Origin: Bdellovibrio sp. KM01 | GTDB lineage: Bacteria > Bdellovibrionota > Bdellovibrionia > Bdellovibrionales > Bdellovibrionaceae | DNA: 64,000 nt | NCBI RefSeq assembly: GCF_013752535.1 | Contig: NZ_CP058348.1 | Coordinates: forward strand, 3,782,001-3,846,000 | Reading direction: 5' to 3' | Shown here: one piece after another, positions 37,622 to 49,128 of the stretch | Layout: each line of letters opens with the position of its first letter | How positions within the stretch are numbered: position 1 is the first letter of the stretch | Made by a program: the position numbers and the translations under genes | Notes under the pieces: model-generated | Database searches by the model: none | Seen by the model: only the letters and a program-made list of their open reading frames with translations | What the model was told of the DNA's origin: nothing

Positions 37622-39181
37622 ATGATTAATTGGGATGAGTTTGAACATATACATGTTATTAAAAAACTCAAACATATCCTTAGCGCATGGTGGAACATTG
37701 ACGTTGTATTCACTGATGAGCGCGGGACACTAAGAGGGTTCGACTCCGGCAAAGCTGGCTTCAACAATCCTGCTATTGCAGCTTTGATGAACAAAGAAGC
37801 GGGCCAAGCTAGCGTTGCTGAGCTTGTAACTAAATCACTTGATGATCTTCGTACTTCTCAAAACCGCTTTTCCCTTCGCAAATGGGACATGGTCGGTTTT
37901 GACGTAGGTGTCTTCCCAATCATGATCGAAAATGATTGCGTTGGTACAGTTGTGGCGATGGGTTTTTTCCGTGAAGCAAACTTCTCTTCTCGTATGACGG
38001 AAATCCGCGAGCGTCTAGCAGCTTTCGGTATGTCTGGCGAAGTGATTGAAAAATGCTTGGGTAAATTGAAATTCATGGATGACCATGAACGCACACACTT
38101 CACTGAAGTTTGTGAATTGGTTGCTCAAGAGATCGTGACTCTTCACCTTGAGATCTCTTCTCGTGAAGATCGCATCAAAGAATTGAATAAAGAGCTTGGT
38201 AACAGATTTAAGTACGACAACATGATCGGTAAATCCAAACCAATGCAATCTTTGTACGCTTTGCTTGATAAAATCAAAGGTGCAGATTCAACAGTTCTTG
38301 TTCAAGGTGAAAATGGTACGGGTAAAGAGTTGATCGCTAAGTCGATCCACTATAACTCTCACCGCAAAGACAAACCATTCGTTATCCAAAACTGTTCTGC
38401 GTTCAATGACAACTTATTGGAATCAGAACTATTCGGTCACGTGAAGGGTTCATTTACCGGCGCTTTGAAAGACAAAAAAGGTCTTTTCGAAATGGCCGAC
38501 AAAGGAACATTCTTCCTGGATGAGATCGGTGATACATCTCCACAAATGCAAGTTAAGCTTCTTCGCGTATTGCAAGAAGGCACTTTCACTCCAGTGGGTG
38601 CGACTGAAATGAGAAAAGTCGATGTTCGTATCGTTGCAGCGACGAACAGAAACCTTAAAGAGATGGTTGAGCAAGGTACATTCCGTGAAGACTTGTACTA
38701 CCGTTTGAATGTTATCAACATCCGCGTTCCGCCTCTTCGCGAGCGTAAAGAAGACATCCCGTTCTTGACGGATTTCTTCTTGAACAAAATCCATGAAGCT
38801 CAAGGTGGTGTAAAACACCAATTGACGAAACGTGCTCTTGAGAAATTGTACGACTATCCATGGCCAGGTAACGTTCGTGAATTGCAAAATGAAATCGAAA
38901 GACTTTGTGTTCTTTCCGGTGAAGAATCAAAATTGATGGGCGAATTGCTTTCTCCAAAAATTTTGGAAGCTGGTGAGAAAAATAAAGTTCAAGGTTCCCG
39001 CTTGCAAGGTAAGTTGAAAGACGCTTTGGAAGATCTAGAGCGCGAAATGATCCGTGAGGGTCTTCGCCGCACAGGTTGGAATAAATCGAAACTTGCTAAA
39101 GAATTGGGTATCAGCCGTGCAGGTCTTATCATGAAAGTCGAAAAATACGGCTTGGATAAGCGTAAGATCGCTCGCGCCTAA
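37622..39181 (+). CDS. Sigma-54-dependent transcriptional activator (NtrC-type, Fis HTH)
   Basis: From the ATG at 37622 (GGGAG six bases upstream) the product has 519 residues. The N-terminal sensory domain (about 1-180) is PocR/GAF-like and lacks a receiver, so it probably binds a ligand or partner. The AAA+ domain has Walker A GENGTGKE (229-236), GSFTGA (276-281; usual form GAFTGA) and Walker B FFLDEIGD (297-304). A Fis-type helix-turn-helix (RRTGWNKSKLAKELGIS) is near the C terminus. It drives open-complex formation at -24/-12 promoters; one such promoter is in this window at 27525. A TTG start 11 codons earlier is less likely. A terminator follows. Confidence 0.93.
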   Translation: MINWDEFEHIHVIKKLKHILSAWWNIDVVFTDERGTLRGFDSGKAGFNNPAIAALMNKEAGQASVAELVTKSLDDLRTSQNRFSLRKWDMVGFDVGVFPIMIENDCVGTVVAMGFFREANFSSRMTEIRERLAAFGMSGEVIEKCLGKLKFMDDHERTHFTEVCELVAQEIVTLHLEISSREDRIKELNKELGNRFKYDNMIGKSKPMQSLYALLDKIKGADSTVLVQGENGTGKELIAKSIHYNSHRKDKPFVIQNCSAFNDNLLESELFGHVKGSFTGALKDKKGLFEMADKGTFFLDEIGDTSPQMQVKLLRVLQEGTFTPVGATEMRKVDVRIVAATNRNLKEMVEQGTFREDLYYRLNVINIRVPPLRERKEDIPFLTDFFLNKIHEAQGGVKHQLTKRALEKLYDYPWPGNVRELQNEIERLCVLSGEESKLMGELLSPKILEAGEKNKVQGSRLQGKLKDALEDLEREMIREGLRRTGWNKSKLAKELGISRAGLIMKVEKYGLDKRKIARA

Positions 39182-39226
39182 TTGGGCAAGCACCCTAAAT
39201 TATTTACCTATTTGAACTAAAAATAG

Positions 39227-39263
39227 AGGGCTTTGAAGGTGATCTTCAAAGCCCTTTTTCTTT
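39227..39263 (+). terminator. Intrinsic terminator after the sigma-54 activator gene
   Basis: AGGGCTTTGAAG and CTTCAAAGCCCT form a perfect 12-bp stem with a five-base loop followed by TTTTCTTT. Confidence 0.93.
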
Positions 39264-39312: not shown

Positions 39313-39340
39313 CTGACAGTTGGTATTGTTCTTGTATATT
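39313..39340 (+). promoter_or_regulatory. Sigma-70-type promoter
   Basis: CTGACA (39313-39318) and TATATT (39335-39340) have a 16-base spacer and each differs by one base from consensus. It lies 28 bases before the ATG of the activator-like gene and after a terminator, so this gene has its own promoter. Confidence 0.65.
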
Positions 39341-39368: not shown

Positions 39369-40241
39369 ATGCAAACTACAACTTTGGATTCGTCATTTGT
39401 ATCTCGTCTTAAGCATCTGGTTGAGACTCGCTATGGAAAAGAGCTGCTGATCCGTCAATTGATGGATATGTCTGCAGTGCAACCACACGAAGATACATAT
39501 TTGCGTGGGGTGGATTTTCACGTACCTATCAAGGTGAATGGTGCTCTGCTGGGTACCGCCATCGTTCCGGGTGCTGATGATTTAAATGCTGAAAAACGTC
39601 AGGGCGTTACCCAGTTGATTCGCATGGTATTAGAACCAGCACTTTATAAATGGTATCTTGAACAAAAAGAATCCAACTTAGTTGAAATCAGCAAAGCCAA
39701 TTTCGAAACTGAAAACCTTCATGTGTTCGGCGATGACAAATTGCCAAGCATTGATGAGTTGCTGGAAGACTCTTCCAAGGACCTGGCCAAAGGTCTGTCG
39801 AAAGAGCTATTATCTCACCTAATCCATCTTGAAGGTCAAACGCCGACAACCAATAAGAAAGTCGCTTTGCAGTTGCATGAACTGACCGGCCGCTGGGCAT
39901 TTGTTCCCTTCAACGACATCAAGGGGCAACTTCACTCCAGTTTCGATATCGCGAAAATGGGTGAAATGACAATTTTCATCGAAAACATCGAATCATTGAA
40001 CGCCGCCGAGCAAGAGCTTTTGCTGGAGTATTTGGGTGAAGAACATTCGCCAGATGAACCACTGATTATCACAAGTTCTGCTATGAATCTTGAAGAACTC
40101 GCAAAAATAGAAGGTCTTGCATCCAATTTGATCGATGAAGCCTCTGTGAATTGCTTTGAAGTGGACCGCGCTCCATTAACAACTCAAGGCCTGAAAGAAG
40201 TCCTGGAGCTGTTCTTTATGAAAGATCCGGCATCGACATAA
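39369..40241 (+). CDS. Degenerate sigma-54-activator-like protein (pseudo-ATPase)
   Basis: The 290-residue product has a GAF-like N domain (about 1-100) and a C-terminal part that lines up with the AAA+ domain of the activator just upstream. EGQTPTTNKKVALQLHELTG (155-174) sits where that protein has GENGTGKELIAKSIH, and MTIFIENIESL (200-210) where it has TFFLDEIGD. ENSLKS-type loop and GAFTGA are missing, as is any DNA-binding domain. It therefore probably cannot hydrolyse ATP or contact sigma-54. It could dampen or modulate the upstream activator by forming mixed oligomers; that is inference. The start ATG follows AAGGGG. I know no named family. Confidence 0.7.
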   Translation: MQTTTLDSSFVSRLKHLVETRYGKELLIRQLMDMSAVQPHEDTYLRGVDFHVPIKVNGALLGTAIVPGADDLNAEKRQGVTQLIRMVLEPALYKWYLEQKESNLVEISKANFETENLHVFGDDKLPSIDELLEDSSKDLAKGLSKELLSHLIHLEGQTPTTNKKVALQLHELTGRWAFVPFNDIKGQLHSSFDIAKMGEMTIFIENIESLNAAEQELLLEYLGEEHSPDEPLIITSSAMNLEELAKIEGLASNLIDEASVNCFEVDRAPLTTQGLKEVLELFFMKDPAST

Positions 40242-40266: not shown

Positions 40267-41304
40267 GTGAGAATTTTTCTTATGGTCACTCACGATGAAT
40301 TTCTAAATTCTTTTTTAAGCCGCTCATTATCTACAGATGCATTCAAGGTATTTTCTCTTGCAGGAGATGCCTCGAATCGTCGCTATTACCGCGTGGTACA
40401 TGACAATCAATCATGGGTTCTGATGCGCTGGGAACCATTTGATCCCGCCAACTACCCTCTGATGAGTGTTCTCAATCATTTTGCTAAGAACGGTATCCAC
40501 GTCCCTAAAATCGTCGCGATGTCACCAAGCGAAGGATTGATCCTTCAAGAAGACTTGGGCGATTTGATGCTTGAAAGAAAATTCTGGGAAAGTCAAAGCC
40601 ACGAGTCCTCTATGGAGTGGTACAAGCTGACAGTCGATGAGGTTGTTAAGATTCATCACAAGGCAACGCTTGATCACGATCCGAACTGCTCTGCCTTTAA
40701 GATGAAATTTGATACAGAAAAATTTCTTTGGGAAATGAACTACGGCAAAGATAATTTGTTAGCTGGTGTTTTAAAGTTTCCTTTCAATGACAAATCCAAT
40801 AAAGAACTTTCTGATATCTTTTTGGATATCTGCTCGCGCCTGGATGCGGAACCGAAACGCATCGCTCACCGCGATTACCACTCACGCAACGTGATGATCA
40901 AACTTGATAAAGTTCATGTAATCGATTTCCAGGATGCGCGCCTGGGACCGATCCAGTATGACTTGGTAAGCCTGATGCGTGACTCTTACGTAGATATGAG
41001 CGATGAAATGGCCGCGAAGCTGATCAATTACTATTTGGAGCAATCTAAACAGTATTTGCCGAAAGATTTCTCGCGCGAACATTTTGATCGCATGTATGAA
41101 CTTCAATCCATTCAGCGCTGCTTTAAAGCCTGTGGCAGTTTCGCCAGCTTCTTCCACCAACGTGAAGATCGTCGTTACTTGAAGTATCTTTCCGGCACTC
41201 TTCGTCGCGTAATGAAAGCGATTAATGAGTTCCCAGAGTACAAGGTGTTTGCTGATATATTGATTGATTCAGGGGCTCTTGAAAGAAAGTACGAATCTCT
41301 ATGA
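40267..41304 (+). CDS. amgK: AmgK-like sugar 1-kinase (aminoglycoside phosphotransferase fold)
   Basis: AmgK phosphorylates the anomeric position of MurNAc and GlcNAc for direct salvage into UDP-sugars. The 345-residue product has the AmgK-like features AGDASNRRYYRV (near 25-36), LQEDLGDLML, the catalytic loop IAHRDYHSRNVM and the metal site VIDFQDARLGPIQYDL. It is followed by an overlapping MurU-like gene, as in the known pathway. GTG at 40267 has GGAG five bases upstream; ATG at 40282 is an alternative. Related phosphotransferases act on other substrates, so the sugar specificity is inferred. Confidence 0.8.
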   Translation: MRIFLMVTHDEFLNSFLSRSLSTDAFKVFSLAGDASNRRYYRVVHDNQSWVLMRWEPFDPANYPLMSVLNHFAKNGIHVPKIVAMSPSEGLILQEDLGDLMLERKFWESQSHESSMEWYKLTVDEVVKIHHKATLDHDPNCSAFKMKFDTEKFLWEMNYGKDNLLAGVLKFPFNDKSNKELSDIFLDICSRLDAEPKRIAHRDYHSRNVMIKLDKVHVIDFQDARLGPIQYDLVSLMRDSYVDMSDEMAAKLINYYLEQSKQYLPKDFSREHFDRMYELQSIQRCFKACGSFASFFHQREDRRYLKYLSGTLRRVMKAINEFPEYKVFADILIDSGALERKYESL

Positions 41305-42293
41305 ATGTAATGGTCCTTGCAGCGGGTGAAGGAACTCGGCTTCGCCCTTATACAACTCAACTTCCAAAGCCTGCCATTCCGTTTTTGACTTTGCCTTTGG
41401 CCGCGCACGCTTTGGGATTTCTGCAGGGAATTAAGATTAACAAACTTGTGGTAAATACTTATCACTTGCCTGAAAAGATCCACACTCTATTTAACAAGAT
41501 TAATCACCAGGCAAATGAACTTATATTTTCAGATGAAAAAGGTAAGATTCTCGATAGTGGTGGCGGGCTGAACAAGGTTCACAGTCACTTCAAAGACGGC
41601 GGAGACTTCATCTTGATGAACGCCGACACCGTGATCCTTCCAAAAGACTCCGAGATTCTTAAAAAAGCGATCTCTCACCACCGTTCTACAGGAGCCGTGG
41701 CGACGGTACTTGTGATGTCACATCCCGGCCTTGGTACACAGTTCGGCGGAATCTGGGCCGACGGCAAAAATGCCATTAAAGGCTTCGGAAAAGGAAAAGT
41801 CGAAGGCGCCGAAACAGCTTGGCATTATATCGGAGTTCAGATTTTTTCGGAAAAAATATTCAACTATCTGCCTAAGCAAGATGTTTCGCATATTTTCTAT
41901 GACGGTGTCATGGCTGCAGTTAACAGTGGCGAAACAGCACAAGTCTATCCAATAGAATGTACTTGGTTTGAAACTGGAAACCCTACTGATCTTATTGAGG
42001 CCTCGAAATACTGCGTGAATGCTTTGTTAGGGGATGACGGCCATGAAAAACAAGCGCTGGAAAAAACCTTCGCTCAATATTCATCATCAAAAGTCATCAC
42101 TCAAAAATTCAATGAAGCAAACCTGCAGTTTTCTTCTGAAGCCATCATCGATAACGAATCTAAATTTTCTGGATTTGTAAGTGCCGGGCCAGGAGCTGTG
42201 ATTGGTAAGAATTGTAAGTTGGAAAACGTGATCATCGGAGACGGTGTCCATGTTGCTGACGGCACCACCGTCAACAACACGATTTTGCTTTAA
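41301..42293 (+). CDS. murU: MurU-like nucleotidyltransferase with beta-helix tail
   Basis: The 330-residue protein starts with the NTP-transferase signature VLAAGEGTRLRPYT followed by LPKPAIPF, and has a DxD-like NADTV site. In the AmgK-MurU pathway MurU turns MurNAc-1-phosphate into UDP-MurNAc. Known MurU is about 220 residues; this one has extra sequence ending in hexapeptide-repeat-like turns (SAGPGAVIGKNCKLENVIIG), resembling the left-handed beta-helix of GlmU or mannose-1-phosphate guanylyltransferases. It overlaps amgK by four bases (ATGA). A GDP-mannose-type or other sugar substrate cannot be excluded. Confidence 0.75.
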   Translation: MNVMVLAAGEGTRLRPYTTQLPKPAIPFLTLPLAAHALGFLQGIKINKLVVNTYHLPEKIHTLFNKINHQANELIFSDEKGKILDSGGGLNKVHSHFKDGGDFILMNADTVILPKDSEILKKAISHHRSTGAVATVLVMSHPGLGTQFGGIWADGKNAIKGFGKGKVEGAETAWHYIGVQIFSEKIFNYLPKQDVSHIFYDGVMAAVNSGETAQVYPIECTWFETGNPTDLIEASKYCVNALLGDDGHEKQALEKTFAQYSSSKVITQKFNEANLQFSSEAIIDNESKFSGFVSAGPGAVIGKNCKLENVIIGDGVHVADGTTVNNTILL

Positions 42294-42294
42294 A

Positions 42295-43260
42295 CTATTT
42301 TTTCAAATCAACATCCGAGGCGCCAAAGAATGAATCTTGGCTCTCTTTGACTTTATAACGACGAGACATCATCAGGAAAATACTATCTGCCGCAACACCA
42401 ATCGGCTCGCCGTTATAGTTCTTACTCATGCCTGCAGCCAGTCTTGAATTGTCTTTATCCAACAAACTTGATGACCCACGAGCACCCGCATAGCCTGGAT
42501 AGGCACCACTTCCACTGCTGCCATCACCACTTGGATAGCGACTGCCGCCTCCGCCACCAGAGCTTTCGTCATAACCCTGCGCCTTCGTCAACGCGCCGAT
42601 TTTTACTTTCTCTAAGGCTTTCTTTTCGATGTCCTTAGAAGTCGCCATCGCTGCATCAATAGCACCTTGAGGAATCCCCGCAGATGCCATTCCAGCCGCT
42701 GAACTTAGATCAGACACGTTATAGGATTTTCCATCTGGAGAAGTAATTTTCGTCGCAGAGCTATTTACCAAACCTTGTGCTTTCAGACTGCTTAAGCCGG
42801 CTTCCGCTTTTTTCATATAACTTGAGCCGACTGATGCATTTGATTGATAGTCAGGATCAGAGCTTGATGCCAACCCGGAGTTGTAATTCCCAGAACCGTA
42901 AGCATCCGACAGGTCCGCTGTATTGTAAGATTCGCCAGCTTTTTGTCCATTCGCTTTTGACTGCTTCATGGACATAATTCCCATTGCTGTAAATAGAGCA
43001 GCTACAGCACAGGCACTACCATCCTCGGGACAGCGTGACCAGTTTTGAGCAGCTACCGCAAACTCTGTGGCACTTGCAACAGCATTGAACGCTTGCGCCG
43101 AATTATTTTTACTCGCATTGTTATTCGCGGAGCTGTTAACAGCAGGAATCGATGAAGTTTTGCTGCTTTCCACTCCCGTTTCTGCCGCGAAAGAATACGC
43201 AGGAGACAACGCGATGCTAAGACTGCAAACCGATTTAGTAATCGTTTTAAATACTGTCAT
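42295..43260 (-). CDS. Secreted Ser/Gly/Ala-rich protein of unknown function
   Basis: The 321-residue product has a signal peptide (about 1-25), low-complexity Ser/Asn/Ala regions, a hydrophobic segment with two cysteines (SRCPEDGSACAVAALF), and a Gly/Ser-rich stretch (about 230-265). A short C-terminal charged part follows. I recognise no family. It ends one base after the convergent murU stop and follows the next gene by eight bases, so the two are co-transcribed. Its composition suits an exported, surface-associated or scaffold protein. Confidence 0.75.
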   Translation of the reverse strand: MTVFKTITKSVCSLSIALSPAYSFAAETGVESSKTSSIPAVNSSANNNASKNNSAQAFNAVASATEFAVAAQNWSRCPEDGSACAVAALFTAMGIMSMKQSKANGQKAGESYNTADLSDAYGSGNYNSGLASSSDPDYQSNASVGSSYMKKAEAGLSSLKAQGLVNSSATKITSPDGKSYNVSDLSSAAGMASAGIPQGAIDAAMATSKDIEKKALEKVKIGALTKAQGYDESSGGGGGSRYPSGDGSSGSGAYPGYAGARGSSSLLDKDNSRLAAGMSKNYNGEPIGVAADSIFLMMSRRYKVKESQDSFFGASDVDLKK

Positions 43261-43268
43261 GTTGTCTC

Positions 43269-44756
43269 CTAGTTATTTAGTAAAGAAGATTTATTATCCT
43301 GGTAGCGATCACGAACTTTTTCCCAGTTCGATTTACCACCCTGACCGGTTACTTCTTTAACCCAATTCTGTTGCGCGCCACCCATCTTTTTTGGATCTTT
43401 TGCTCCACCTGGCAAGTAACCACGAAGACCTGACTTATCACTGGAGGAATCACCACCACCCCAGCCTCCGCCACCTCCGCCGCCGCTAGAGCCAGCTAAG
43501 ATATTAGTGTCGAGAGCTTTATGACCTGATTTATCTTCACCACTAGCTCCGGAGCCACTGCCGCCTCCGCCACCACCAAGGTTTGCGCCGCCACCGCCAA
43601 CGGGAGCACCAACACCACCACTGCCTGAATCATTGGATGGTGAGCGACCTGTTGTTGAAGGAGTATTGCCCGTTGCCAAATCAGCTGCCGTCAACCCATC
43701 TTTGCTTGATGAAGCTGGTGTCGCAGAAAGTGCTGACAAACCACTGCCAGCAGAACTCATTGAAGATTTCGCAGCAATAGAGCCGCAACCTTCAAGCATT
43801 GGATTTTTTAAACAGATACATTCTGGAAGATTTGCATTCGCTTCAATCTTACAAGTTTCCGCAGTCGTCGCCACGTCAGTTCCCGCAGAAGAATCCGTCG
43901 CTTCCTCGCAGCTCTTACCTTGTTTCAAAGCATTCACCACGCCATAAATACCGGATGCCGCTGAAGCAATTAGCTGCGGATATTTACTTGTACATACTTG
44001 CGATTTTCCAGCGATAGATTGAATGTCGCCAGTCTGAAGTTCTTTACCGATAAGATTCAAAATCGTAGCCTGCAAATCTTTGTAACGTGCCACTTGGGCA
44101 GAACAGTTCGGATCTTGGGGATTTCTGCACACAGGCGTCGAAGCTTTCACGGCCTTCTGCATGTTTGCAACGGCTTCTTTAGTGCTGGAACAATACCATC
44201 CACAGTGACCCTTAGCTGCACCACAAGCTGCCGTATAAGCTGTCAAAGCTGCTTGGGCAATACCCATACCTTTACCAAAAGCACTGCATGAATCACTCAC
44301 TCCAGATGCGCCTGCGACTGTCCCCAAGACGTTCAGTGCCGCTACGGCATCCTGAATTTTAGGACTCAAATTGGACAGACAGGCATAGGCCGCCACTGAT
44401 TGACCTTTTACACAAGTATCCCAGTTGCCAATATACTCGTTGTACGCGGCCTTTTCGTTTTTGATCTGATTGTCTTCGATGAATGCGCCGTTCAATCCCA
44501 CCAACTCACTGAAGTTTTTTTCGAATTGTTTTCTAACGGCTTCCAAACCACCAGCTGTCGCTTCGTTGGTATCGGCAGCAACACTTGAATCAAGTGATGT
44601 AACTGGCGCAGAAGCAGACTTAGCACCTGCAATTTGCTTCGGCTTAGCGAAACCTACTTCACTTGCTGGTACCGTTTCTTGTTGTGCGTAAACGTTCCCA
44701 CCTGCAAATGAGATCGCAAAAAGAATAGTAAACACGCGAGTTATCGCATTTCTCAT
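43269..44756 (-). CDS. Secreted cysteine-containing protein with Gly/Ser-rich tail
   Basis: The 495-residue product has a signal peptide (about 1-24, ending VYAQ), a helical N half with many cysteines (about ten between residues 110 and 310, for example CGAAKGHCGWYC and CKIEANANLPECIC), and a C half dominated by Gly/Ser low-complexity sequence (about 360-450). It is the first or second gene of the 42295-47030 group. A FliA-like promoter may lie in its leader (44778-44804). No family recognised. Confidence 0.78.
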   Translation of the reverse strand: MRNAITRVFTILFAISFAGGNVYAQQETVPASEVGFAKPKQIAGAKSASAPVTSLDSSVAADTNEATAGGLEAVRKQFEKNFSELVGLNGAFIEDNQIKNEKAAYNEYIGNWDTCVKGQSVAAYACLSNLSPKIQDAVAALNVLGTVAGASGVSDSCSAFGKGMGIAQAALTAYTAACGAAKGHCGWYCSSTKEAVANMQKAVKASTPVCRNPQDPNCSAQVARYKDLQATILNLIGKELQTGDIQSIAGKSQVCTSKYPQLIASAASGIYGVVNALKQGKSCEEATDSSAGTDVATTAETCKIEANANLPECICLKNPMLEGCGSIAAKSSMSSAGSGLSALSATPASSSKDGLTAADLATGNTPSTTGRSPSNDSGSGGVGAPVGGGGANLGGGGGGSGSGASGEDKSGHKALDTNILAGSSGGGGGGGWGGGDSSSDKSGLRGYLPGGAKDPKKMGGAQQNWVKEVTGQGGKSNWEKVRDRYQDNKSSLLNN

Positions 44757-44777
44757 AGATATTCCCCTACCTGTCTC

Positions 44778-44804
44778 TTTTCGGACAAAAGTCAGAGAAT
44801 CTTA
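44778..44804 (-). promoter_or_regulatory. Possible sigma-28 (FliA) promoter
   Basis: On the minus strand TAAG, 15 bases, TCCGAAAA resembles the FliA consensus TAAA-N15-GCCGATAA (three of four and six of eight bases). It lies just ahead of the 495-residue secreted protein gene. Such matches can arise by chance. Confidence 0.35.
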
Positions 44805-44834
44805 ACTGTCTCAAGTTGAGAATTTACGAATGAG

Positions 44835-47030
44835 CTAGAAGTCTGAAGGCGGCGGATTTTTGATTTTAGCCTTGCCGGAGTTATCTCCACCCAGTTGCAG
44901 CTCAGAATTCAAATAATCAGAGGAGATCATTTTAACCGAATAACCCGAGGTACCGCCCACAATACAATTGCCAGAAGTTGGCGGAACGGGAGTTTCACCA
45001 TCGTATTTTGGCTCTACTGTACACTTACCCAGCTTCTCCGTATTCAGGGAGTAGTCCAATAAGCCGTTATCAGCCCAACCCGTAAGTACGTTTTTCCAGT
45101 CCTTGGAAAGGTATGTCAGCTTTTGGTCAATATCTAAAGATAGAGTTTGAATCTCTTTGCTCTTTAAAACTTTATATTGGTCTTTCACGCTGAACTCTTC
45201 CAAGTTCACATCACCCTGCTTGTAGTCTTTGTGATAGCCAATGTCGGGACGAATGGATTTATCAAAACCAGGATTCGCCTTAGGCATAAACTTTTCTTTA
45301 ATGCGCTTATAGTAGTTATGATAAAAATCTGGCTCGATAGAGTAATAAGCCATATCAAATTGGTCAGGCAGAATTGCTAAAAGTTCCAAGGCGCGGAATC
45401 GCGAGGGACCTTTTACTTCCTCGCTCCAAGCCAATAGATCTCCATTGCCATTACTTTTCCTGGCAAAATCAAACGGCAATTGATTCCAGTGACCGAAGTT
45501 AGGAGCCGTATCTTGAAAATCAGGATTATCCTTCGTTCGTTTGTCCCATGTTGGATCCAATTTAAAAATCGCGCGACCAAACTGATATAAAAGGTTTCGA
45601 CTTTTCAAACCATATTGATCACCAACGAAGCGGCTGTAATTTCCTGCCCGAGTTGGATCTTTGGGATCGCCGATATTGCCAGTATCATAAATTCTTGGGG
45701 GAAGATTTGCATCGATCTTACCACCACCTGCAGAACGTTCGGAACCGCTGGGCCATTGCGATTCATACCAAGGGCCCATTCTGCCTCCGAATGGTTTAAA
45801 AAATGCGCGCGCTTTTAAATCAACGGCACCCAATGGAGAGAAGGGAATGTTTGGACGAGTGACAGCCGAAACACCAACATACGCCATACACCATGGGTTT
45901 TTCTCGACGCCCATTGAGTAGTTATAGGGATCCTCAATCTGACTGCGAAGACCGACGAACTGAGAAAGCTCCGAAATATCTCTCCATAATGGATGCCCTT
46001 GGTTTTTTACAACTTCGGCAGGCCAGTTATTGCGATCCGAGGCAAGTTCTCTTGGCACGCGCTCAATATTGTTTGCATCAACATTACAGACCGTATCCAC
46101 ATAACTAAATGCAGGAGCTATACGAATGGGAACCAGCCATTTTGCCGGCAATTCATCTTTTGCAGGATTATTGCAACCATCAGCACCCAAAGAGTTATAA
46201 ACTTTAAATGACTGCATCCCATCTTTATTTGCAGCCGTCAGATTGTTATCTAAAGTTGCTTTGATGCCTTTTTTTACTGATTCTCCATCTAGATCAAAAA
46301 AATCTTCTGTCTCGTTACTCATGGATCTAGAAATTGTTGAAATAAGCAGCATCCTATCTGCTTGATCCATATTGTAACCCACCACCCACTGCGCCAGCAG
46401 TCGATAATTGAAGGCTCCAAAATATCGACAACGCTCGAACGCCAAGTTTCGAAATGTTTCCGATATATTTGTCATTGCAACGTTCACACTGTGAAAACCA
46501 GCGATCGTTGGGGTTGGTCCGAATACCTTGACTCCGCTCATACCTTTTAAGTCTCTGCAGGTATTCTCGTTCGGCATCGGTTTGAATGGAACATACGTAG
46601 CACAAAAAGATGGTGCATCATAAAAGTCTTTGGCCGCCGGATTGATATCATCAGTATCCGCGCGCCCTGGATAAATTTGTAAATTATTAGCTGGGATTTT
46701 GTCGAGCGGATGTTCCGACATATCCCCCGCCGATCCAACCATACGATATCGCCACGCCAGCAGTTTCCAACTTTGACGAATCTGATAATTGATATGTGCG
46801 ATCGCATTCATGTTCTCCGCTTGCTTCATTGCACCGTAATAGGCAGCAAGATCAACGGAGTTCTGTAAGTTGATTTTGTGATGGACCAACAAGCCAACGT
46901 TGATGACCATAGCAAAGAAGATAAACAGAATTTGAAATATCAAGGCGACAAATAGCGCGACCTGACCCTGAGGGTTTTTGAGTCTTCGAATAAGTTGGTC
47001 ACGCAGTTTCATCATGTGGTTAAAAAACAT
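44835..47030 (-). CDS. TadG/TadE-like exported protein
   Basis: The 731-residue product begins with a short basic cytoplasmic part, a GQVALFVALIFQ-type hydrophobic helix (about 20-48) and LQNSVDLAAYYGA, the pattern of Tad/Flp minor pilins and TadG-like proteins that are anchored by one N-terminal helix. The long remainder is polar, with aromatic and proline-rich segments and several cysteines, and faces the exterior. There are no other tad genes in the window. It lies upstream of two more exported proteins on the same strand. Function may be adhesion or assembly of a surface structure. Confidence 0.65.
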   Translation of the reverse strand: MFFNHMMKLRDQLIRRLKNPQGQVALFVALIFQILFIFFAMVINVGLLVHHKINLQNSVDLAAYYGAMKQAENMNAIAHINYQIRQSWKLLAWRYRMVGSAGDMSEHPLDKIPANNLQIYPGRADTDDINPAAKDFYDAPSFCATYVPFKPMPNENTCRDLKGMSGVKVFGPTPTIAGFHSVNVAMTNISETFRNLAFERCRYFGAFNYRLLAQWVVGYNMDQADRMLLISTISRSMSNETEDFFDLDGESVKKGIKATLDNNLTAANKDGMQSFKVYNSLGADGCNNPAKDELPAKWLVPIRIAPAFSYVDTVCNVDANNIERVPRELASDRNNWPAEVVKNQGHPLWRDISELSQFVGLRSQIEDPYNYSMGVEKNPWCMAYVGVSAVTRPNIPFSPLGAVDLKARAFFKPFGGRMGPWYESQWPSGSERSAGGGKIDANLPPRIYDTGNIGDPKDPTRAGNYSRFVGDQYGLKSRNLLYQFGRAIFKLDPTWDKRTKDNPDFQDTAPNFGHWNQLPFDFARKSNGNGDLLAWSEEVKGPSRFRALELLAILPDQFDMAYYSIEPDFYHNYYKRIKEKFMPKANPGFDKSIRPDIGYHKDYKQGDVNLEEFSVKDQYKVLKSKEIQTLSLDIDQKLTYLSKDWKNVLTGWADNGLLDYSLNTEKLGKCTVEPKYDGETPVPPTSGNCIVGGTSGYSVKMISSDYLNSELQLGGDNSGKAKIKNPPPSDF

Positions 47031-48015: not shown

Positions 48016-49128
48016 ATGGGAATCAATCAAATTATCGGACAGCACATGTTTATCGGTATTCAAGGTCACTCTTTGACTGCCGACGAAAAGAAATTCATCG
48101 TCGATAACAACATCGGTGGTATCTGCCTGTTTGGTCGAAATGTCGCTGATCCAAAGCAGGTTCATGACCTGTGCGCCGAAATCCAATCTTTGCGTCATAA
48201 GCAAGCTGACAAGGCTCCCCTATTTATCGGGATAGATATGGAAGGCGGCCGAGTCCACCGCTTGAAGCCGCCATTTACAGTTTGGCCAGCACTTCGCAAA
48301 TTGGGCGATCTGGATGCCCCAACTGTTTCCTTTCACTTTGCAAATCGTATGGGTCAGGAATTGAAGGCCGTTGGTATCAATTTGGATTTTGCGCCGTCGG
48401 TTGACGTCTTTACTAATGAAGCAAACAAAGTTATCGGCGATCGTTCGATAAGTTCTGATCCTGAATCTGTCGCTAAACATGCCTCTGCCCTGGTTCGCGG
48501 TTACATCAAAGCTGACGTGATCACTTGTGCAAAACATTTCCCTGGCCACGGAAACACTTTGGTTGATAGCCATGAGGATCTTCCTGTGGAAAACCTGGAC
48601 AGAGAACGCCTGGAAAGTTGCGAACTGATTCCGTTCAAAAAAGCATTCAAGTCCCGCGTCGACATGGTGATGACTTCCCATATTATGTTCCCAAAAATCG
48701 ATCCAGATTGGCCAGTGACGTTGTCAGAAATTTTCGTAAAGAAAATGATCAAAGAAGAACTTCGCTACAGAGGCTTAGTGATCACTGACGACTTGGGAAT
48801 GAAGGCTATGTCTTCTCACTATGGTGTTGATGAAATCCCGGTTCGCGCTCTTCAAGCTGGTTGCGATCTTCTTTTGTATTGCAATGAATTCGACGTACCT
48901 CCGCAAGCTGTGGAAGCAATCTTAGGTGCTGTGGCGCAAGGCACTTTGGATCAAGCACAACTAGAGTCATCTTACAGAAGAATTTTGGATCTGAAAAAAG
49001 CCAAAATCACCAATCCAGATCCACTGGATATGAGTGAAGTTGTGAAGATCGTTGGCCACGCGGAACATCTTAAGATCGCTGCTGCCATCAACAGCGGCGT
49101 CTCCCCAGACGGGTTACTGCCAGAGTAA
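48016..49128 (+). CDS. nagZ: Beta-N-acetylhexosaminidase (NagZ, GH3)
   Basis: NagZ removes GlcNAc from anhydro-muropeptides in the cytoplasm, a step in wall recycling. The 370-residue protein has the GH3 signature elements GIDMEGGRVHRLKPPF, NLDFAPSVDV, the KHFPGHGNT and DSHEDLP loop carrying the catalytic His/Asp pair, and VITDDLGMKAM with the nucleophile aspartate. There is no signal peptide, matching a cytoplasmic enzyme. It would feed GlcNAc and anhydroMurNAc into salvage, including the AmgK/MurU-like pair 6 kb away. Confidence 0.92.
   Translation: MGINQIIGQHMFIGIQGHSLTADEKKFIVDNNIGGICLFGRNVADPKQVHDLCAEIQSLRHKQADKAPLFIGIDMEGGRVHRLKPPFTVWPALRKLGDLDAPTVSFHFANRMGQELKAVGINLDFAPSVDVFTNEANKVIGDRSISSDPESVAKHASALVRGYIKADVITCAKHFPGHGNTLVDSHEDLPVENLDRERLESCELIPFKKAFKSRVDMVMTSHIMFPKIDPDWPVTLSEIFVKKMIKEELRYRGLVITDDLGMKAMSSHYGVDEIPVRALQAGCDLLLYCNEFDVPPQAVEAILGAVAQGTLDQAQLESSYRRILDLKKAKITNPDPLDMSEVVKIVGHAEHLKIAAAINSGVSPDGLLPE

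Follow-up and report, generated by a model that had tools for sequence, protein, structure and literature searches.

A conserved pseudo-activator gene at the head of a predicted sigma-54-dependent amgK-murU operon in Bdellovibrio and its probable origin from a neighbouring activator

Why does a bacterium keep an intact gene for an activator-like protein that has lost its ATPase and DNA-binding motifs, next to a sigma-54 activator that has all of them? This question is raised by gene X (39369..40241, + strand), which encodes a pseudo-activator of 290 amino acids in Bdellovibrio sp. KM01. The window denotes the whole stretch of 64,000 nucleotides that was analysed. An earlier note on this DNA had proposed that X is a decayed paralogue of the upstream activator, that it is transcribed from its own sigma-70 promoter, and that it has a regulatory role such as the formation of mixed oligomers with the active protein. 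Parts of this proposal stand and parts are replaced below.

Gene X and its degenerate AAA+ domain

The upstream activator, EBP (37622..39181, + strand), is intact, as the earlier note had read it. EBP consists of a PocR-like N-terminal domain, an AAA+ domain, a lid, and a Fis-type helix-turn-helix (HTH), it matches Pfam Sigma54_activat, AAA_lid_14, and HTH_8, and it exhibits the motifs GENGTGKE, GSFTGA, and LDEIGD. X consists of a GAF-like domain with a long helix (residues 8-115; 39390..39713, + strand) and a pseudo-AAA+ domain (residues 146-266; 39804..40166, + strand). Residues 153-265 match Sigma54_activ_2 (E=5e-7), which is the sole Pfam family above its curated cut-off, and X has no match in NCBIfam.

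The alignment of X with EBP confirms the lost motifs that had been pointed out before. The Walker A position reads EGQTPTTNKK in X against GENGTGKE in EBP, and Walker A is lost in all relatives from the order that were aligned with X. The Walker B position reads TIFIENIES against TFFLDEIGD and is not conserved among relatives. X and every aligned relative have a deletion in place of the GAFTGA segment (GSFTGA in EBP), and this holds for the copies of families f15 and f16, which lie outside the class, as well. The arginine-finger segment reads LASNLIDEA in X against FREDLYYRL in EBP. X terminates at the start of the lid, and both alignment and Pfam indicate that the lid and the Fis-type HTH are absent. 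The first strand, the EIH helix, and the second strand are conserved. Since these motifs are lost, X is expected neither to hydrolyse ATP nor to contact sigma-54 by way of a GAFTGA loop, and DNA binding by an HTH is not expected either.

The by-eye alignment of the C-terminal half of X with the AAA+ domain of EBP was correct although the similarity is too weak for pairwise comparison. BLASTP of X against EBP finds nothing significant (E=1.3), whereas the profile-profile comparison of the C-terminal part of X with the AAA+ part of EBP gives a probability of 94.6% (E=1.4e-8). The AlphaFold2 model of X, built from six sequences, has medium confidence (pLDDT 68, pTM 0.62). Its residues 146-266 match the AAA+ domains of FleQ, DmpR, NtrX, NtrC1, and PspF with Z scores of 10-12, the highest (11-12) being those for FleQ, DmpR, and NtrX. 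The predicted fold is thus AAA+ of the sigma-54 activator type and not an unrelated fold. The N-terminal 115 residues were also modelled separately (pLDDT 76), and this domain has weak resemblance to GAF domains, among them that of KdpD (Foldseek probability 0.99, TM 0.55, E=0.02). The comparison of the N-terminal domains of X and EBP using hhalign gave 1%, then 62% with a larger set, where the aligned part is only a short hairpin.

X is present in 24/24 Bdellovibrio genomes. A profile search at E<=0.001 finds it in 109/117 genomes of the order, some of the weakest of these matches being to generic activators. The dN/dS values for X between the window and three members of the genus are 0.009, 0.034, and 0.058; synonymous sites are saturated in further pairs. 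Strong purifying selection acts on the X protein. Together with the near order-wide presence, the low dN/dS rules out that X is a pseudogene or a relic, and the view that a degenerate paralogue is kept intact for a plausibly regulatory role is retained.

The domain that is kept differs between lineages and none is universal in X. The copies from family f2 and from f11 of the sister order consist of the N-terminal domain alone (134-151 aa), some f4 copies lack the N-terminal domain and keep the pseudo-AAA+ domain, and the f15 and f16 copies consist only of AAA+ and HTH. X also evolves much faster than EBP (identity of 72% against 94%). These observations bear on the suggested mixed oligomers, in which X would enter the AAA+ hexamers of EBP and poison or tune them. 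The pseudo-AAA+ fold kept in Bdellovibrio, with its conserved strands and EIH helix, would suit such hexamers, but the ring interface is lost on both the arginine-finger and the P-loop sides. Mixed rings are disfavoured as a general mechanism because the f2 and f11 proteins have no AAA+ domain and because X changes so much faster than EBP. We regard this explanation as improbable overall, and mixed hexamers may still form in Bdellovibrio itself.

Other features of this protein family were also observed. A C-terminal histidine, often preceded by a hydrophobic residue, occurs in 23/46 X homologues outside family f1 (for example, L050, L059, L085, and L086), N-domain-only versions included. A short SNVIPLRR-like motif recurs in the linker after the N-terminal domain in homologues outside f1 (for example, L056, L086, and L092). 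It lies between the N-terminal and pseudo-AAA+ domains, and in the truncated f2 proteins it lies just before the end. A second degenerate activator of 280 aa (G000:C1:3492165-3493007, - strand; L087 5626-6468) exhibits a partial AAA+ domain with intact lid and HTH_8, and similar ORFs are found in most of the genus members searched.

The promoter of X and the amgK-murU operon

The promoter of X is, on its sequence, of the sigma-54 type. The element TTGGTATTGTTCTTGTA (39320..39336, + strand; GG-N10-GT) is followed by AAGGGG and by the ATG of X at 39369. A -24/-12 element of the form [CT]TGG[CT]A[CT]-N4-[CT]TTG[TA]A precedes X in 24/24 Bdellovibrio species, where TGG, A, TTG, and the last A are invariant. 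The -12 dinucleotide in Bdellovibrio is GT (GA in one species) and not the canonical GC, while TTGC is found at this position in other families (L052, L084, L093, L105, L144, and L145). The sigma-70 promoter that the earlier note had assigned to X was rejected, as the -35 element of the match CTGACA-16-TATATT changes in relatives and this match is one of 3 where 2.4 are expected by chance.

The order-wide enrichment was obtained using a weight matrix whose values were chosen by hand to follow the known consensus. In 68% of 63 loci outside the genus, the top-scoring site ahead of X reaches >=10, compared with 3.1% of the 449 upstream regions of other ORFs from the same loci that served as controls (Mann-Whitney p=1e-24). 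The order-wide claim rests on this matrix, since the strict pattern finds no match outside the genus. The sigma-54 element precedes X even at loci that have no adjacent activator gene (L064, L088, L098, L099, and L105).

Two further features lie between EBP and X. An intrinsic terminator with a 15-pair stem and a T-run (39225..39257, + strand) is predicted to set the EBP transcript apart from X. Terminators found overall are not above the level of chance, but this one is long and has counterparts in several members of the genus. A candidate upstream activator site, CTAAA-N2-A-N-TTACC-N4-TGA-N-C-N-AAA (39195..39221, + strand), was identified from the genus alignment about 100-125 bp upstream of the sigma-54 promoter. 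This conserved block stays with X in L023, where the EBP gene is 5.6 kb away. The block was given little weight and no regulon can be read from it, because the search of its own genome with <=2 mismatches yields 1 match and the reversed control likewise yields 1.

X is followed by an AmgK-like MurNAc/GlcNAc sugar kinase gene (40282..41304, + strand; Pfam APH; NCBIfam AmgK E=7e-40) and a MurU-like sugar-1-phosphate nucleotidyltransferase gene (41301..42293, + strand; Pfam NTP_transferase; NCBIfam MurU E=2.5e-20). Both NCBIfam matches are clear but fall short of the cut-offs. The gap between X and amgK is 40 bp, and amgK and murU overlap by 4 bp. By this arrangement, X is the predicted first gene of an X-amgK-murU operon. 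The earlier note did not mention the operon. X is tied more closely to amgK than to the activator. Across the loci surveyed, amgK immediately follows X in almost all that could be judged; the exceptions are L089 (amgK on another contig), L100 (a 79-aa ORF in between), and L104 (X inverted). In contrast, EBP lies within about 0.4 kb of X in roughly two thirds of the loci, and in the others it is further away or, in several, on another contig.

Some arrangements beside this operon were recorded as well. The inverted X of L104 (4467-5336; G110) sits between EBP and amgK. One genome (G118) has two X-amgK pairs on different contigs (L111 and L112), one adjoining EBP and the other not. Three genes at 42295-47030 on the - strand of the window, one of them with a Tad pilus domain (PF13400), remain neighbours of the operon in a large part of the order but diverge quickly.

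The operon-head position is the one constant of X, which has no universal protein domain, and X could accordingly be read as a leader gene, translated for the sake of amgK expression, with a dispensable product. This is very improbable, as the low dN/dS reveals selection on the X protein itself. Strict translational coupling is also unlikely because the gaps between X and amgK range from -25 to over 200 bp.

The tight bond to amgK would also fit a role of X as a sensor or accessory protein in the AmgK-MurU pathway. Its GAF-like domain would then bind a muropeptide sugar, X would modulate AmgK or MurU with no contact to the activator, and the pseudo-AAA+ domain would be a leftover scaffold. The adjacency of X and amgK is almost unbroken even where EBP lies elsewhere, the genomes that have EBP and lack amgK (G033, G103, and G112) have no clear X, and f2 and f11 keep the N-terminal domain alone. 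The context of murein recycling also fits, with a NagZ-like hexosaminidase gene at 48016 in the window and an ORF in L144 that we read from its sequence as AnmK-like. On the other side, X of f15 and f16 immediately follows EBP, has a sigma-54 promoter to itself, and has no amgK in its vicinity, and some f4 copies have no N-terminal domain yet keep the pseudo-AAA+ domain. We consider this explanation unlikely on balance, and the most serious of the alternatives.

Ancestry of X and its relation to EBP

X as a simple recent copy of EBP was rejected, since pairwise BLASTP finds nothing, and the claim of ancestry rests on outgroup intermediates for the same reason. In f15 and f16, EBP is directly followed by an activator-like protein of 310-376 aa without GAFTGA. 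The P-loop of these copies is intact (GEMGTGKK in L146 of f16) or nearly so, and their HTH is almost identical to that of EBP. The HTH scores of these copies are 107-162 against EBP and 55-95 against the other activators of the window genome, with 62-95 for the best of these; for L146, the score is 162 against its own EBP and 95 against the best other activator. The L058 copy (f5) still has the lid and HTH_8, its Walker A is ruined, and its HTH is a weaker case (91-95 against EBP, 70 against others). In total, an HTH is present in the X copies of L058, L146, L153, L154, and L159.

In the tree, the X copies form a clade (99/99) that joins next to EBP. The branches are long, so the closer relation of X to EBP than to other activators is of moderate strength; the position relative to other activators is informative and the root is not. 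Copies that adjoin EBP, keep the HTH, and in one case keep an intact P-loop indicate a tandem duplication. Together with the N-domain-only copies of f2 and f11, they make duplication followed by differing dismantling the most economical history. On these sequences, a tandem duplication of EBP, the probable parent, is the most likely origin of X, which was then dismantled in a lineage-specific manner.

EBP is also probably the activator of the X promoter. Orthologues of EBP (E<=1e-140) occur in 230/242 genomes across the phylum. Weak generic matches and contig ends aside, the genomes of the order that lack EBP gave no clear X, while EBP without X does occur. The genome holds at least 13 intact activators and the gene bond between X and EBP is breakable, so the target of X might instead be another activator or RNA polymerase. 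We find this doubtful, as the ancestral-type copies lie directly behind EBP and share the HTH of EBP and of no other activator, and as X in the order is not clearly found without EBP.

EBP exhibits further properties. Its codon bias is strong (effective codon number of 40, the second lowest of 23 genes in the window) and substitution at its synonymous sites is slower than in its neighbours (in one pair, dS is 0.38 for EBP and 1.87 for X). Both are unusual for a regulator, and EBP may be highly expressed. Outside the class, acyl-CoA carboxylase-like genes are repeatedly found near EBP (L153, L154, L159, L160, L163, L165, L167, and L168), hinting that EBP has a different or wider role there.

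A proposed feedback and its comparison with known systems

We propose, with a probability of about 0.45, that X is a pseudo-activator encoded in an EBP-driven sigma-54 operon and feeds back on EBP. A tandem duplicate of EBP would have become the ancestor of X, losing first the loop that contacts sigma-54 and then, in most of the order, the ATPase, the lid, and the HTH. The sigma-54 promoter, probably switched on by EBP, would transcribe X as the first gene of the X-amgK-murU murein-recycling operon. The X protein may then contact EBP through its GAF-like domain, signalling helix, and, where present, pseudo-AAA+ domain, and cap or tune expression, presumably with a negative effect. A ligand sensed by the GAF-like domain, possibly a murein sugar, may set the level of expression.

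This feedback is suggested by the sigma-54 promoter beside the probable parent, and it is consistent with the AAA+ kinship of X, the purifying selection on it, its place at the operon head, the HTH kinship of the outgroup copies, and the lack of a clear X without EBP in the order. The persistent link to amgK suggests either a murein sugar as the fed-back signal or a direct action of X on behalf of the enzymes. Against the feedback, the adjacency to amgK is almost exceptionless while that to EBP is not, the fast change of X is unexpected for a protein packed against EBP, and the promoter could be driven by other activators of the genome. The lack of a universal domain speaks against a single fixed AAA+ ring mechanism and is the chief unexplained point. 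The broader claim that a paralogue dead in catalysis and DNA binding is kept order-wide as a sensor or feedback subunit that is encoded in the operon and serves the intact parent, with different domains kept in different lineages, is slightly more tentative. The probabilities of the feedback reading and of its alternatives do not sum to one because the readings partly overlap.

Sigma-54 activators are controlled in trans by unrelated inhibitors such as PspA and FleN, and regulation around these activators is already well known. We know of no AmgK-MurU operon described with a pseudo-activator as its first gene and a sigma-54 promoter. The literature search found no paper on Bdellovibrio AmgK, on EBP, or on the X family. 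As far as could be searched, a lineage-wide, serially dismantled activator paralogue that heads a sigma-54 operon is undescribed. If the proposal is true, such a paralogue shows how bacterial regulatory pseudoenzymes arise, with the intermediates kept in living lineages. The findings also point to sigma-54 control of murein-sugar recycling in predators that eat the cell wall of their prey, and they single out EBP, a phylum-wide activator for which X appears to be an inbuilt brake or a partner in sensing.

X shares the AAA+ fold, an N-terminal GAF-like domain, and common ancestry with sigma-54 activators (Pfam Sigma54_activat and Sigma54_activ_2), and its outgroup orthologues keep the HTH and lid. 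Unlike these activators, X of Bdellovibrio has no ATPase motifs, GAFTGA, arginine fingers, lid, or HTH. The genes downstream of X resemble amgK and murU of the murein-recycling operons reported in Pseudomonas and Caulobacter (PMC5371407, PMC13046382). Activators without GAFTGA, namely NtrC of Caulobacter and Rhodobacter and VspR, keep DNA binding and regulate sigma-70 promoters (PMC10274813). Their sigma-54 contact loop is deleted as in X, whereas X has no DNA-binding domain and its nucleotide site is predicted to be inactive. Two systems are precedents for the proposed feedback. VnfA1 and VnfA3 are interacting paralogous activators that share promoters and are co-expressed with the accessory protein VnfZ (PMC9542535), which is a precedent for the control of activators by a paralogue or partner; both VnfA proteins bind their target promoters, whereas X lacks an HTH for DNA binding. 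PspF is an activator restrained in trans by another protein, PspA (PMC3791423), and is analogous to the model proposed for X and EBP, but PspA is a coiled-coil protein of unrelated sequence whereas X is derived from an activator.
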